The position numbers were made by a program, and so were the translations under genes. Below are positions 57,941-63,931 of a stretch of 64,000 nt of DNA, one piece after another (within the stretch, counting starts at the first letter, position 1; every line of letters begins with the position of its first letter). Origin of the DNA: Blastopirellula marina DSM 3645 (GTDB taxonomy: Bacteria > Planctomycetota > Planctomycetia > Pirellulales > Pirellulaceae); assembly GCF_000153105.1 (NCBI RefSeq), contig NZ_CH672376.1:1314817-1378816 (forward strand). The letters are read 5' to 3'. Below the pieces are notes generated by a model that made no database searches, was not told where the DNA came from, and worked only from the letters and a program-made list of their open reading frames with translations.

Positions 57941-60769
57941 ATGGGTCTAGCATCGGCCATGACGACTGCGTTAACAGGCATGACGGCCGCCGAAACGCAG
58001 ATTGACGTGCTGGGCAATAACCTGGCGAATTCGCAAACGGTCGGTTTTAAGGCTTCCGATGCGTTGTTCGCCAATCAGTTTTTGCAAACGCGCGGACTAG
58101 GTTCTAAACCGAGCGAAACGGACGGCGGTACTAACCCGCGGCAAGTCGGTCTCGGCGTGATGGTCGCTGAGATTACCCCCAACTTCACCCAAGGTACGAT
58201 CGAGGTGAGCTCGAACCCGTCGGACCTGGCGATCCAAGGGGACGGCTTCTTTATCGTACAAGGGAACAACGGCGAACGGCTTTACACCCGCAACGGCATT
58301 TTCAAAACCAACTCGAACAACGAGTTGGTGACGATCGGCGGCGAACGCGTTCTCGGCTTCGGGATCGACGAGAACTTCAACATTCAAGAGACGCAGCTGG
58401 TGCCGCTGACGATTCCGCTGGGCGCCGCGGCTGTCGCCAAAGCGACCGAAAACGTCTATCTCGAAGGTACGCTGCCGGCGACCGGCGATCTCGCGACGGT
58501 CGCGCAGGTGATTGAAAGCGCGATTCTCGGCAACAGCGCCATCCCGCGTCCTGATGTCAGCGGAGCCTCGGCGATTGTCGCGGAGACGCCGGATGACAGT
58601 TCGTCGACGACCGACAGCGTCTCGACGCCGGGGATCGGGTCGGTCGTTCAGGGACAAACCGAAGGCGCCGGTTCGGTTCCGGATGGAACGTTCGACTATC
58701 GCTTTACGTTTTCTGACGCCGCCCTGGCGAATGAAACCCAAGCATCGGCCAATATCACGGTCAACGTGGCCGACTTGGGGGACGCGATTGCGAACAACAA
58801 TACGGTCACCTTTGCCGGCGCGCCGCAAAGCTCCAGTCACTCGCAAGTCAACATGTACCGCAGTAACGACGGCGGCGCGACCTATTTTTTGGTCAGCTCG
58901 ACCGCGATGGGCGCCGCGGTTGAGGATGTGGCGGCGGCGCCGACGGCGACGCAATTATCAGCGGCCAACATCAACGGAACTGGCTCTGGCGGCGTATTGG
59001 GGGGCGGCGATGTTTATGAATATCGGTTCGCCTTTGTCGATGCCGACGGAAATGAGACGGTCGCGTCGGATGGTCAGCAGATCACCGTCGATGGCGCTCC
59101 GGCTGACGGAAATGGTTACTCGGTCGTCCTCGACAACATTCCGACCAGCGCCGATTATACGGACGTGAGGATCTATCGTACGGCCGCTGGAGGCAGCGAT
59201 TTTTACGAGCTCGATACGATCAGCATGGCGGCGGCCGCGAGTCCCTATATTGATGACGGAAGCGTGCCGTTGACGACCAATGAGCTGAACGAAGATACGA
59301 TCAACGGCAACTATTCTTATCTGGTGACCTTTGGTCGCGCCGGGCAGCAAGAGAGCCGACCTTCGTTGGTCCTTGGACCGCAAAACGTCATCAATGGTCG
59401 TATCAATCTAACCGACCTGCCGCTGCCGGGAGGCGGGACTCCTCCCTATGACACAGTGAACGTCTATCGTAACTTGTCCACCGATTCGGCGTCATACTAT
59501 TTGGTTACCGAATTGGGCGCCGGCGAGGATTTTGTCGATGATCGATCGGACGCAGAGATCTCGGATCTTACCAATTCGGCCAATCGCCGGATTGACTTGG
59601 ATGGACCAAAAGTTGACTCCAACACGTTGTTGGTCGATGTCGTCAAACGCGACGGTTTGAACTTTGAGAGCATGTTCTCCGAAGGGACGCTGACTTTTAA
59701 AGGCTCCAAAGGGGATCGTACGCTCAATGAAAAGACGTTTACCGTCACCGATACGACGATCGTCCAGGATCTGATCGAGTTTCTCGAAGCGTCCCTTGGT
59801 ATTCAGCCCTCGGTCAACGGCAACTCGAACCCAATTCCTGGTTCAGAAAATAACATTGCCGATGAGACCGGCGATCTGTCTCAAGGGATTTACATCACGA
59901 CCGAAGGCCGGATTCGCGTCGTTTCTAACAACGGCGTCGACAACGGCGTGGATATTGGGCTGTCGTCCTTCCAATTGGACAACGGTTCAGGCGTCGTTCA
60001 GAATCCGAACTTGAACTTTGGCGTGATTCAAGAAGCTGTGGGTGAAAGCGCCGTGGCCGACGTGATTGTGTATGACTCGTTAGGCGTGCCGATGAACGTC
60101 CGCGTGACGACGGTGCTGGAAAGCCGCAACGGCACGAATACCGTCTACCGTTGGTTCGCCGATTCGCCGGATAACGACGGCGATACGATCGGCGACGAGT
60201 CGGAAGCGGCGAAGATTTCTGTCGGCACCGGGCTGATCTATTTCGATGGTGACGGCAACTATATTGGCTCTGACAACAACACGGTAACGATCAACCGACG
60301 CAACATTCCGTCGGAATCGCCGCTTGAGTTCGACCTTAACTTCGATCAGCTGTCAGGCCTGGCGGCCGATAAGGCGACCTTGAATGCGTCGCGGCAAGAT
60401 GGTTCCGGCACCGGTAAGCTGAACAGCTTCATCATCAGCGAAGACGGAATCATCCGCGGGGTCTTCTCCAGCGGCGTCGATCGCGATCTGGGGATGATTC
60501 AGTTGGCTCGTTTCGCGAATCCCAGCGGTTTAGAGCAACGCGGTAACAATCTATTCGCCGCCGGCGTGAACTCGGGGCTGCCGGTTCAAGGGGACGCCGG
60601 TGAAGAGGGGATCGGCAGCATCATCGCTGGCGCCGTCGAATTGTCGAATACCGACATCGGCGGAAACCTGATCGACTTGATTCTGGCTTCTACCCAGTAC
60701 CGCGGCAGTTCGCGAATCATTACAACCGCGCAGCAATTGTTCGACGAATTGCTGAATATCCGCCGATAG
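57941..60769 (+). CDS. flgE: Flagellar hook protein FlgE, enlarged with three internal repeats
   Basis: 942 residues, more than twice E. coli FlgE (402). The N-terminus MGLASAMTTALTGMTAAETQIDVLGNNLANSQTVGFKASDALFANQF is the rod/hook signature, followed by the FlgE motif SNPSDLAIQGDGFFIVQGNNGERLYTRNGIF, and the C-terminus (RGSSRIITTAQQLFDELLNI) the hook-type helix. Between about residues 250 and 550 lie three about 100-residue repeats, each with a Y-x-F/V-x-F opening and a V-x-x-YR strand (VNMYRSNDGGATYFLV, VRIYRTAAGGSDFYEL, VNVYRNLSTDSASYYLV). They lie in the outer domain, so probably project from the hook surface. Confidence 0.93.
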   Translation: MGLASAMTTALTGMTAAETQIDVLGNNLANSQTVGFKASDALFANQFLQTRGLGSKPSETDGGTNPRQVGLGVMVAEITPNFTQGTIEVSSNPSDLAIQGDGFFIVQGNNGERLYTRNGIFKTNSNNELVTIGGERVLGFGIDENFNIQETQLVPLTIPLGAAAVAKATENVYLEGTLPATGDLATVAQVIESAILGNSAIPRPDVSGASAIVAETPDDSSSTTDSVSTPGIGSVVQGQTEGAGSVPDGTFDYRFTFSDAALANETQASANITVNVADLGDAIANNNTVTFAGAPQSSSHSQVNMYRSNDGGATYFLVSSTAMGAAVEDVAAAPTATQLSAANINGTGSGGVLGGGDVYEYRFAFVDADGNETVASDGQQITVDGAPADGNGYSVVLDNIPTSADYTDVRIYRTAAGGSDFYELDTISMAAAASPYIDDGSVPLTTNELNEDTINGNYSYLVTFGRAGQQESRPSLVLGPQNVINGRINLTDLPLPGGGTPPYDTVNVYRNLSTDSASYYLVTELGAGEDFVDDRSDAEISDLTNSANRRIDLDGPKVDSNTLLVDVVKRDGLNFESMFSEGTLTFKGSKGDRTLNEKTFTVTDTTIVQDLIEFLEASLGIQPSVNGNSNPIPGSENNIADETGDLSQGIYITTEGRIRVVSNNGVDNGVDIGLSSFQLDNGSGVVQNPNLNFGVIQEAVGESAVADVIVYDSLGVPMNVRVTTVLESRNGTNTVYRWFADSPDNDGDTIGDESEAAKISVGTGLIYFDGDGNYIGSDNNTVTINRRNIPSESPLEFDLNFDQLSGLAADKATLNASRQDGSGTGKLNSFIISEDGIIRGVFSSGVDRDLGMIQLARFANPSGLEQRGNNLFAAGVNSGLPVQGDAGEEGIGSIIAGAVELSNTDIGGNLIDLILASTQYRGSSRIITTAQQLFDELLNIRR

Positions 60770-61104: not shown

Positions 61105-61881
61105 ATGGACATCGCGTCGGTAATAGGGCTAATCGCCGCATTTGGGTTGATTCTCACCGCGATTCTGATTGCGCCTGGATCCTCGTTGGCGGCGTTTATT
61201 GATGCTCCGTCGTTGCTGGTCGTCTGCGGCGGCGCTGTTGCAGCTTGCATGATGGCGTTCCCGCTCAAATCTATCGTCGGCTCGCCGATGGCGCTGAAGG
61301 TTTGTTTTCTGAACAAACCGACCGACGTCGTCGCATTGATCAAAGAAATCGTCAGCCTGGCGGAAACAGCGCGGCGTGACGGTCTGTTGGCGCTGGAAGG
61401 CCGCATCGCCGAAATCAGCAATCCCTTTATTATTGTGGGGATTCAAATGGCGGTTGACGGCGCGCGCCCTGACGTCATCGAAGATCTCTTACGAACCGAA
61501 ATCGACGCCGTCGCGACGCGGCATCGCGATACGAAAGCAATTTACGACCAGATGGGGCGTTTCGCGCCGGCTTACGGCATGATCGGCACGCTGCTTGGCC
61601 TGATTATCATGTTGGGCAATATGAGCGATCCATCCTCGATCGGCTCTGGTATGGCGGTGGCTTTGTTGACCACGCTCTACGGGGCGATCGTTTCGAACTG
61701 CGTCTTTTTGCCGTTCGCAGAAAAGCTTTCGTTTTTGAACAAGCAAGAGTTGCTGACGATGGAAATCATCGTGCGCGGCATCATGGCGATTCAGTCGGGC
61801 GAGAACCCGCGCGTGATCGAACAAAAGCTGCGCACCTTCCTGCCGCCGGCCGCACGTAAGAAATCGGAAGAGGCCAAATAA
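61105..61881 (+). CDS. motA: Flagellar motor stator protein MotA
   Basis: 258 residues with four membrane helices: about 5-25, 31-50, 150-170, 180-200. The proline-containing segment FAPAYGMIGTLLGLIIMLGNMSDPSSIGSGMAVALLTTLYGAIVSN is the MotA/PomA signature. It forms the ion channel with MotB and drives FliG. Its stop overlaps the motB start (TAATG). Confidence 0.95.
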   Translation: MDIASVIGLIAAFGLILTAILIAPGSSLAAFIDAPSLLVVCGGAVAACMMAFPLKSIVGSPMALKVCFLNKPTDVVALIKEIVSLAETARRDGLLALEGRIAEISNPFIIVGIQMAVDGARPDVIEDLLRTEIDAVATRHRDTKAIYDQMGRFAPAYGMIGTLLGLIIMLGNMSDPSSIGSGMAVALLTTLYGAIVSNCVFLPFAEKLSFLNKQELLTMEIIVRGIMAIQSGENPRVIEQKLRTFLPPAARKKSEEAK

Positions 61882-62654
61882 TGGGCGATGACGACGACGC
61901 CGTAGGCATCCCCGAATGGGTCGTAACCTTTGGCGATATGATGTCGCTGCTGTTGACCTTCTTCATCATGTTGGTCTCGATGAGCGAGATCAAAAAGGAA
62001 GAACACTTTCAAGCTCTGGTCGAATCCTTTCGCCGCCAGTTTGGCCATGACGACTCGATGAATAGCGTCGTCGCCGGCACCGCGCAGCCGCGCAACTCTC
62101 ATTTGTCGAACTTAGCGACCATGGGACGCGCCAAGCGTTTCAGCACGCAGGAAGGGGGCGACAAAGTAAAAGCACCCGTCGGCGACAGCCCGCAAGTGCG
62201 GATCATCCGCCCTGGCTCCAGCACGGCGGTCGGGACGGTGATTTACTTTCCCGGCGAGTCGGCCAAGCTGACCGACGAAATGAAGCGAGATCTGCAGGTC
62301 CAAGCTCAAGAGTTCGGCGGCAAGCCGCAGAAGATCGAGATTCGTGGACATGCGGCTCCCAAGCCTTTGGCGCCGGGCGCTCCGTTTGTGGATCACTATG
62401 ACCTGGGCTACGAACGTTGCCGGGCTGTGATGAATTTTCTGGTTTCGCTGGGAATAGATCCGCGGCGAATACGGATTTCAACGGCTGGAAAGAACGAACC
62501 GATTCATATAGGCACCGATCCGTTAAAATCGAAACAAAACCCCCGAGTCGAAGTGTTTTTGCTCGACGAAGTGGTGGATGACCTGGTTGGATCCGGCGCC
62601 GAGCAGTCGCAGCGGATCACCAACGGCGGACCGACAGGGGATACGAAGCCCTAG
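61881..62654 (+). CDS. motB: Flagellar motor stator protein MotB
   Basis: 257 residues. PEWVVTFGDMMSLLLTFFIMLVSMSE is the MotB membrane helix with the ion-carrying Asp. The C-terminal half is OmpA-like, binding peptidoglycan: KIEIRGHAAPKPLAPGAPFVDHYDLGYERCRAVMNFLVSLGIDPRRIRISTAGKNEP. Together with MotA it forms the stator. Whether H+ or Na+ is used is not decided by the sequence. Confidence 0.95.
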   Translation: MGDDDDAVGIPEWVVTFGDMMSLLLTFFIMLVSMSEIKKEEHFQALVESFRRQFGHDDSMNSVVAGTAQPRNSHLSNLATMGRAKRFSTQEGGDKVKAPVGDSPQVRIIRPGSSTAVGTVIYFPGESAKLTDEMKRDLQVQAQEFGGKPQKIEIRGHAAPKPLAPGAPFVDHYDLGYERCRAVMNFLVSLGIDPRRIRISTAGKNEPIHIGTDPLKSKQNPRVEVFLLDEVVDDLVGSGAEQSQRITNGGPTGDTKP

Positions 62655-62725: not shown

Positions 62726-63262
62726 ATGGCTGAATCAACGCCCAATAGCTCCGGTGGGCCTTCGCTGATGACCAAGCTCAAAATATTGGGCGCGGTATTG
62801 GCGCTCGTTGGCTTGGAATGCATGCTCGCTTACTTCGTTATTCCCTCGCCGGAAGATGTGATTGAAGCGGCGGAAATGCGAGCGCGACAGCACACGGCTA
62901 CCGAGCCGGATGTGGAAGATCTAACGGCGGTTTCCGATAAAGCGACCGTTGAAGTGGATCTGAAAAACTTTGGCATCACCGCGTATCAGCCGTTGGCCAA
63001 TACGACGCTCCGGATCGACTTTCACCTGTACGCGATGGTGAACGCCGAGAATCAAGGAGAATTTGAGACGCTGATCGCGCAGAACGAACATCGCTTTCGC
63101 GAGCAAGTGCTCGTCACGCTTCGTAGTTCCGAAGTCAGCGACCTGACCGATCCAGGTTTGGGCTTGCTTAAGCGCAAGATTTTAGAGAAAACGAATCGCA
63201 TTCTGGGGAAACCCCTCGTTAAGTCAGTCATTTTCAGCGACTACTCCTTTATCGAGCAGTAG
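62726..63262 (+). CDS. fliL: Flagellar basal body-associated protein FliL
   Basis: 178 residues. One membrane helix (LKILGAVLALVGLECMLAYFVI, about 17-38) precedes a periplasmic domain (VEVDLKNFGITAYQPLANTTLRIDFHLYAMV, with FREQVLVTLRSSEVSDLTDPGLGLLKRKILEKTNRIL) that matches FliL. It supports the stator. The ATG has only a weak binding site; 71 bases separate it from motB. Confidence 0.9.
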   Translation: MAESTPNSSGGPSLMTKLKILGAVLALVGLECMLAYFVIPSPEDVIEAAEMRARQHTATEPDVEDLTAVSDKATVEVDLKNFGITAYQPLANTTLRIDFHLYAMVNAENQGEFETLIAQNEHRFREQVLVTLRSSEVSDLTDPGLGLLKRKILEKTNRILGKPLVKSVIFSDYSFIEQ

Positions 63263-63292: not shown

Positions 63293-63931
63293 ATGAGCGA
63301 CGATCAAATTGGGCAGGACGAAATCGAAGAGCTGTTGCGCCAAGCGTCAACCGGCAAGCTCGAAGCGTCCGGCGAAACGAAACCTGCAGCGGCCGAAGTC
63401 GAGTCGCTGGGTCAGAACGAGATCGAGGCGCTGCTCGCCGGCGCCGGAGGAGGCGGATCCGCCGCTTCCAGTTCGACCGCGCGGCCTGCACATGCCGCAG
63501 CGACCGCCGCTCCGGCAGCGTCGCGCGATACGAGCGATAGCGGCATGGATCCGAATGACATTGAATTTCTGCTGAATCAAGCCCAAGCGGCGCTCGCTTC
63601 GCTTGACTCGCCTGCCGAGATGGCGTCGGACGCCCAGTTATTTCAACTCCGCGATTTCGGCGGCGCTCCGGCTAGCACCAACAAAACCACGATCGACCTG
63701 GTCCGCGACGTCGAGCTGGACGTCAAGATCGAGTTGGGTCGCACCAATATGTATCTGGAAGACGTCCTGAAGATGAACAAGGGCTCGGTCGTCTCGCTCG
63801 ACAAGCTGGCCGGCGATCCTGTCGATATCTACGTCAACGGGCGAATGATCGCACGCGGCGAAGTGCTGGTCCTGAACGACAACTTTTGCGTTCGCATCGC
63901 CGAATTGATCGTCGGGGATGGAATCGAATAA
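63293..63931 (+). CDS. fliN: Flagellar motor switch protein FliN with FliM-type N-terminal motifs
   Basis: 212 residues. The C-terminal domain (about 134-212, TTIDLVRDVELDVKIELGRTNMYLEDVLKMNKGSVVSLDKLAGDPVDIYVNGRMIARGEVLVLNDNFCVRIAELI) is the FliN/SpoA C-ring fold. The N-terminal 115 residues are unusual: three EIDALL-type motifs are seen, IGQDEIEELL (6-15), LGQNEIEALL (39-48) and MDPNDIEFLL (85-94), separated by Ala/Ser/Gly-rich linkers. The same motif is the CheY-P-binding site of FliM and of Thermotoga FliY. No fliM gene lies between fliL and fliN, its common position. Confidence 0.9.
   Translation: MSDDQIGQDEIEELLRQASTGKLEASGETKPAAAEVESLGQNEIEALLAGAGGGGSAASSSTARPAHAAATAAPAASRDTSDSGMDPNDIEFLLNQAQAALASLDSPAEMASDAQLFQLRDFGGAPASTNKTTIDLVRDVELDVKIELGRTNMYLEDVLKMNKGSVVSLDKLAGDPVDIYVNGRMIARGEVLVLNDNFCVRIAELIVGDGIE

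Follow-up and report, generated by a model that had tools for sequence, protein, structure and literature searches.

The 64,000-nucleotide stretch of the Blastopirellula marina DSM 3645 genome that we analyzed (hereafter, the window) includes part of a flagellar gene cluster in which motA, motB, and fliL lie 5' of fliN, and fliP, fliQ, fliR, and flhB lie 3' of it, beyond the window end (Table 1). A profile search identified the fliN product, a 212-residue C-ring protein with a long N-terminal tail, as FliN (TIGR02480, 105.3 bits vs a cut-off of 84.05), and solved FliN structures (1o6a, 1yab, and 8umd) were matched in comparisons by sequence and by the fold predicted in the first model. A Pfam scan of this protein found FliMN_C as the sole domain, with no CheC domain and no match to the FliM middle domain (PF02154). 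Since fliL directly precedes fliN, the locus corresponds to the usual fliL-fliM-fliN slot without fliM. Further upstream, a 942-residue ORF located just before flbD resembles a gene for a flagellar hook-type protein, and its product seems longer than is usual for that type. Outside the window, the genome encodes a 309-residue protein with a C-terminal SPOA domain (FliMN_C, 65.4 bits), which scores below the FliN cut-off and lies away from the known flagellar genes; many Pirellulales genomes have three TIGR02480 matches, and the third is perhaps a relative of this protein.

Table 1. Features of the fliN locus and related genes discussed in the text (window coordinates unless a contig or locus is given)
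Feature	Position	Strand	Evidence or remark
motA	61105..61881	+	MotA_ExbB
motB	61881..62654	+	MotB_plug and OmpA
fliL, immediately upstream of fliN	62726..63262	+	PF03748, 25.8 bits (cut-off 24.6)
fliN	63293..63931	+	ORF, TIGR02480, PF01052
EIDALL-type motif 1, IGQDEIEELL, aa 6-15	63308..63337	+	11.7 bits; predicted helix 8-19
EIDALL-type motif 2, LGQNEIEALL, aa 39-48	63407..63436	+	22.3 bits; predicted helix 41-50 or 41-49
Third helix, MDPNDIEFLLNQAQAALASLDSP, aa 85-107	63545..63613	+	Lineage-specific; fixed distance before the FliN domain
FliN C-terminal SPOA domain, aa 136-206	63698..63910	+	PF01052 (FliMN_C), E 1.5e-23
Hook-type protein-like ORF	57941..60769	+
309-residue SPOA protein (outside the window)	contig C1, L297:7621-8547	+	FliMN_C
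CheC-like protein	L350:10875-11501	+	Adjoins cheD and cheA

The original prediction for this locus was that the FliN tail holds three copies of the EIDALL-type motif, the short segment with which FliM binds phosphorylated CheY (CheY-P). We scored the tail with a matrix derived from FliM N-termini alone, using a threshold of 9 bits, at which 0.76% of the regions in shuffled FliN tails give a match. Two of the copies (aa 6-15 and 39-48) stood up to this analysis, and the supposed third, MDPNDIEFLLNQAQAAL, fell below the threshold and proved to be part of a helix held at a fixed position. In 20,000 shuffles of the N-terminal region of the window FliN, two matches of at least 9 bits were obtained in 1 shuffle and one match in 287. 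Motif 2 tops the scores among the window ORFs by ~10 bits. The score of motif 1 is unremarkable on its own, given that four unrelated window ORFs reach 11.1-12.2 bits; this motif is supported by the conservation of its key residues, with Q8, E12, L14, and L15 each kept in no fewer than 90% of 36 aligned FliN. In addition, both motifs are identical in all four compared genomes of the genus, while the linkers differ.

The comparative sample was limited to Planctomycetota, in which FliN was compared in 178 of 211 genomes above the FliN cut-off, including 35 of 38 from Pirellulales. We also examined 80 named loci, i.e., the best 80 of 498, a set that is weighted to near relatives. Their titles refer mostly to Pirellulales or Planctomycetota, with one Nealsonbacteria MAG and one Planctomicrobium among them, and the nearest is a Blastopirellula MAG; species may overlap between the named and sampled sets. 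Across these relatives, the third helix takes the form D-I-E-x-LL-x-QAE-x-A-I-x-S and lies mostly 48-53 residues from the end of the scanned region. This pattern was found in 75 of the 80 named loci and in 29 of the 35 sampled FliN of Pirellulales, and a pattern search found it in none of the 143 sampled FliN from outside the order (fliM lies apart from fliN in 74 of these and next to it in 50, and the other 19 lack a FliM match). D89, L93, A97, A100, and S103 are invariant in the 36 aligned FliN, and the helix also occurs in 6 named loci and 2 sampled Pirellulales FliN where no array motif reaches the threshold. We therefore rejected MDPNDIEFLLNQAQAAL as an EIDALL copy, since it is sub-threshold and aligns with this longer helix in relatives. 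The constancy of the third helix and its position ahead of the FliN domain suggest that it belongs to that domain or its contacts.

Two AlphaFold models gave much the same picture of the tail. The model built with 53 aligned FliN places helices at residues 8-19, 41-50, and 87-104 (mean pLDDT 70.1, pTM 0.34), and that built with 36 FliN (that of the window and 35 from the named loci) places them at 8-19, 41-49, and 87-105 (mean pLDDT 69.3, pTM 0.36). In both, the tail linkers have pLDDT values below ~55, with the SPOA fold lying C-terminal to them. The tail is thus predicted to consist of separate helices on low-confidence linkers; these models address its shape and not its partners.

With regard to fliM, its reported absence was borne out for the neighborhood only, where fliL adjoins fliN. 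The genome (6.66 Mb in three contigs, 99.59% complete) encodes one FliM, on a contig (C1) other than that of fliN, and we therefore rejected the loss of fliM from the genome. This FliM, of 376 residues, exceeds the cut-off of the FliM equivalog (TIGR01397, 300.3 bits vs 219.6), starts with MGNDNVLSQAEVESLL, and carries the canonical N-terminal motif VLSQAEVESLL; the gene adjoining fliM presumably encodes a gamma-glutamyl phosphate reductase-like protein. The N-terminal motif pattern was matched by all 31 FliM analyzed from the class, i.e., the 30 best-scoring ones and that of the window genome. Two findings together had been named as counting against the original prediction, namely a normal FliM with its own N-terminal motif elsewhere and a lack of CheY binding to FliN, and the former is what the genome holds.

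The separation of the two genes is general in the order. Counting fliM as apart from fliN when the two are on different contigs or separated by over 5 kb, we found this arrangement in all 35 Pirellulales genomes whose FliN sequences were compared: fliM lies on another contig in 28 and on the same contig in 7, where the nearest is 481 kb distant. Likewise, fliM is missing from the DNA around fliN in each of the 80 named loci (in 71, this DNA reaches 1500 bases or more beyond the upstream end of the fliN frame), and 73 have a fliL match there. This gene order is therefore a property of Pirellulales and not peculiar to the window genome. The 7 Pirellulales genomes without a FliN motif also have fliM apart, and since the displacement is constant and the array variable, the former is by itself no predictor of the latter; there is consequently no support for the idea that the FliN array arose because fliM was displaced. 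In other Planctomycetota (L188, L181, L238, L214, and others), fliM and fliN are neighbors, and FliM is often divergent. The N-terminal motif pattern was unmatched in 27 of 46 FliM of this fliM-adjacent type, with a near match in at least one (L018). A second kind of C-ring, with fliM adjacent to fliN, may exist in Planctomycetota.

A motif count in other Planctomycetota had been proposed as a check on the original prediction, and it revealed that arrays are widespread in Pirellulales. With the third helix left out, 10, 19, 34, and 17 of the 80 named loci have zero, one, two, and three motifs, respectively, and zero, one, and two motifs occur in 7, 6, and 22 of the 35 sampled genomes. In these third-helix-excluded counts, the last 58 residues were cut from loci lacking that helix, so motif counts outside the order come from whole-tail scoring. 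Counted over the whole tail, at least one FliN motif is present in 28 of the 35 Pirellulales genomes (where the third helix is possibly included) vs 31 of the 74 other genomes with fliM apart, and two motifs were found in 5 of those 74. No FliN motif was detected in the 50 genomes with fliM adjacent, and 2 of the 19 genomes without a FliM match have at least one. The resulting contrast, 59 of 109 FliN with fliM apart vs 0 of 50 with fliM adjacent, is confounded because FliN of the adjacent type have short tails (median of 43 aa vs 77 aa in fliM-apart FliN outside Pirellulales) and come from other lineages. Copy number is labile, with the copy class (0, 1, 2 or more) changing 25 times on the best FliN-domain tree of the 109 genomes. 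The start of each FliN was taken as the first ATG of its frame, so motifs are lost in some loci; L128, for instance, has four motifs by pattern in the open frame and two above the threshold after trimming.

Chemotaxis genes are present in the window genome, which has two CheA matches, eight CheW matches, a CheY-like protein, a CheC-like protein, and CheD. The CheC-like protein, encoded in the chemotaxis cluster, scores 66.6 bits against NF041093, below the cut-off of 250, and may be the CheY-P phosphatase of the system, FliN being without a CheC domain. Within Pirellulales, FliN motifs occur in 24 of 28 genomes with CheW vs 4 of 7 without it, and the mean number of motifs is 1.71 vs 0.71 (1.61 vs 0.71 without the third helix), a difference with a rank test p of 0.0046 that is uncorrected for kinship. 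The difference is weaker when the 109 genomes with fliM apart are taken together, a motif being present in 48 of 81 with CheW vs 11 of 28 without it (Fisher p 0.08). When kinship was taken into account, only 6 supported independent pairs were available, and the array differed in ~0.6 of these pairs on average, so the presence of CheW as a predictor of the array is suggestive and was not upheld. Individual genomes depart from the trend in both directions: four from Pirellulales (G383, G395, G419, and G427) have CheW yet no FliN motif, and G413, from the same class, has two strong FliN motifs and no CheA or CheW match.

We also examined FliM in 21 genomes that have no CheW match, 11 from the class and 10 selected from the phylum. 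In 18 of them the FliM motif scores at least 16.9 bits; it is degenerate in G439, and no motif was found in G375 and G274. Many of these genomes are incomplete MAGs, which makes the absence of CheW less sure. Retention of the FliM motif in these 18 genomes argues that it has a use independent of the CheA-CheW array, and a second partner seems to be required in any case. Seven Pirellulales genomes (G319, G458, G439, G375, G348, G407, and G455) have a FliM above 200 bits and no CheA or CheW match; these genomes apparently lack a classical chemosensory array although they have flagellar genes.

According to excerpts of two papers, CheY-P is the ligand of the EIDALL segment in FliM and FliY, where the segment serves as a first-step tether (PMC9126983, PMC7355467), and the current view for Thermotoga and E. 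coli is that the tether hands CheY over to another site, located on FliM or FliN (excerpts of PMC7355467 and PMC11087270). Judged from the sequences, it fits best that FliN shares docking with FliM in a multivalent manner. We lean toward reading the FliN tail as a flexible multivalent docking arm whose partner is most likely CheY-P, with FlhG as a possible second or alternative partner. What we infer here, namely binding by the tail, its partner, the stoichiometry in this organism, and the effect on the motor, would run as follows. The FliN tail bears two predicted helices of the type that FliM uses to capture its regulators, and FliM, which is normal and has its gene at another site, keeps its own. 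Since the C-ring of other bacteria has about three FliN per FliM (excerpts of PMC7355467), several FliN-tail docking helices per FliM helix would be arranged on the lower C-ring rim. The tails could then raise the local concentration of a partner that is also bound by the FliM N-terminus, and this partner, most likely CheY-P, would subsequently act on the FliM/FliN core; FlhG might occupy the tail in addition or instead. In a bolder extension, which we consider rather doubtful, the Pirellulales C-ring would carry most of its regulator-docking helices on FliN (two copies on about three FliN per FliM would make six FliN helices per FliM helix), forming an antenna that is tuned by the gain and loss of copies and serves regulators with and without a CheA-CheW array.

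FlhG, an ATPase of the MinD type, determines flagellar number and is believed to let FliM/FliN into the growing C-ring. In the window genome, flhF and an flhG-like gene lie between flhA and a sigma factor gene, and the product of the flhG-like gene contains an N-terminal DQAxxLR, which we assume to be typical of FlhG, although its identification relies on neighborhood and weak MinD-type matches. If the FliN motifs dock FlhG rather than CheY, multiple copies might hold FlhG on new FliN. FlhF exceeds its cut-off in 45 of 57 Pirellulales genomes, and where CheW is absent the FliM motif is mostly kept and FliN motifs persist in part, as would suit a ligand of this kind; against it, FliN motif number tends to be lower in just those genomes. 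In Shewanella, FlhG reportedly interacts with FliM/FliN by way of the FliM N-terminus, and in Bacillus with FliY, a homologue of FliN (excerpts of PMC11236974 and PMC12826062, respectively), but the FlhG of monotrichous flagellates is said to bind FliM and not FliN (excerpts of PMC12826062). By analogy with these systems, FlhG is the best-documented candidate that we found for a second partner of the motif; as the partner in place of CheY, we consider it possible but unlikely.

The repeats could also be part of a loosely constrained disordered tail, with helices that serve packing or FliH contact or that have no regulatory role. The lability of copy number among the 109 genomes, the lack of any motif in 7 of the 35 sampled Pirellulales genomes, and the low confidence of the tail outside its helices are all in keeping with this explanation. 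Nevertheless, letters of the FliM type recur and stay fixed while the linkers change, and chance matches at 9 bits are rare, which leads us to regard it as improbable, and more so than the docking of FlhG. Least probable by far is the proposal, made in the original prediction, that FliN took over signal reception because fliM had gone. It drew on a fliN without a neighboring fliM, an arrangement that the DNA of the 80 named loci repeats, but it is refuted as stated by the full FliM with a canonical motif in the same genome and by the displacement of fliM throughout the 35 Pirellulales genomes, including those with no FliN motif.

On the reading that we prefer, a docking arm shared with FliM, docking sites seem to have been added to the motor and not exchanged. 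If the tails bind CheY-P, these motors would form a natural series with zero to three extra docking sites per FliN, in which the relation of tether number and placement to the sensitivity of the flagellar switch could be addressed directly, and it would become possible to ask whether the signal can enter mainly through FliN. Flagellar genomes that lack CheA and CheW and keep the FliM motif, and partly the FliN motif, would be well suited to finding other partners of the motif. We consider the interest of the finding to be moderate, and greater if binding is true.

The closest known counterpart is the EIDALL segment of FliM, the CheY-P docking helix, with which the window FliN motifs have a 10-residue pattern in common. 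In each case, a C-ring protein has an N-terminal tail in which a flexible linker bears a short predicted helix; unlike the FliM segment, the window motif is on FliN and is present in two copies (up to three above the threshold in relatives). FliY of Bacillus and Thermotoga combines an SPOA domain, a CheC phosphatase domain, and an N-terminal EIDAL (in part from excerpts of PMC12826062 and PMC9126983). The window FliN shares with it the FliN-type SPOA domain and an N-terminal EIDAL-type motif, and scores 109.4 bits against the FliY model NF005995 over aa 99-206 (short of the cut-off of 218), but it has more than one motif and no CheC domain, the CheC-like gene being separate in the chemotaxis cluster. 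That the window FliN derived from FliY by loss of the CheC domain is offered purely as an idea. No title dedicated to the planctomycete C-ring was found in the literature searched, and planctomycete motors seem little studied; likewise, we found no report of repeated EIDAL motifs in FliN in the open-licence PMC papers covered by the search. A comparison of 12 species found full or degenerate EIDAL sporadically in FliN, according to excerpts of that study (PMC6946799), whereas here the motif is repeated, widespread in Pirellulales, and accompanied by a lineage-specific third helix. A single EIDAL motif in FliN is already known, and what appears to be new here is its multiplication.
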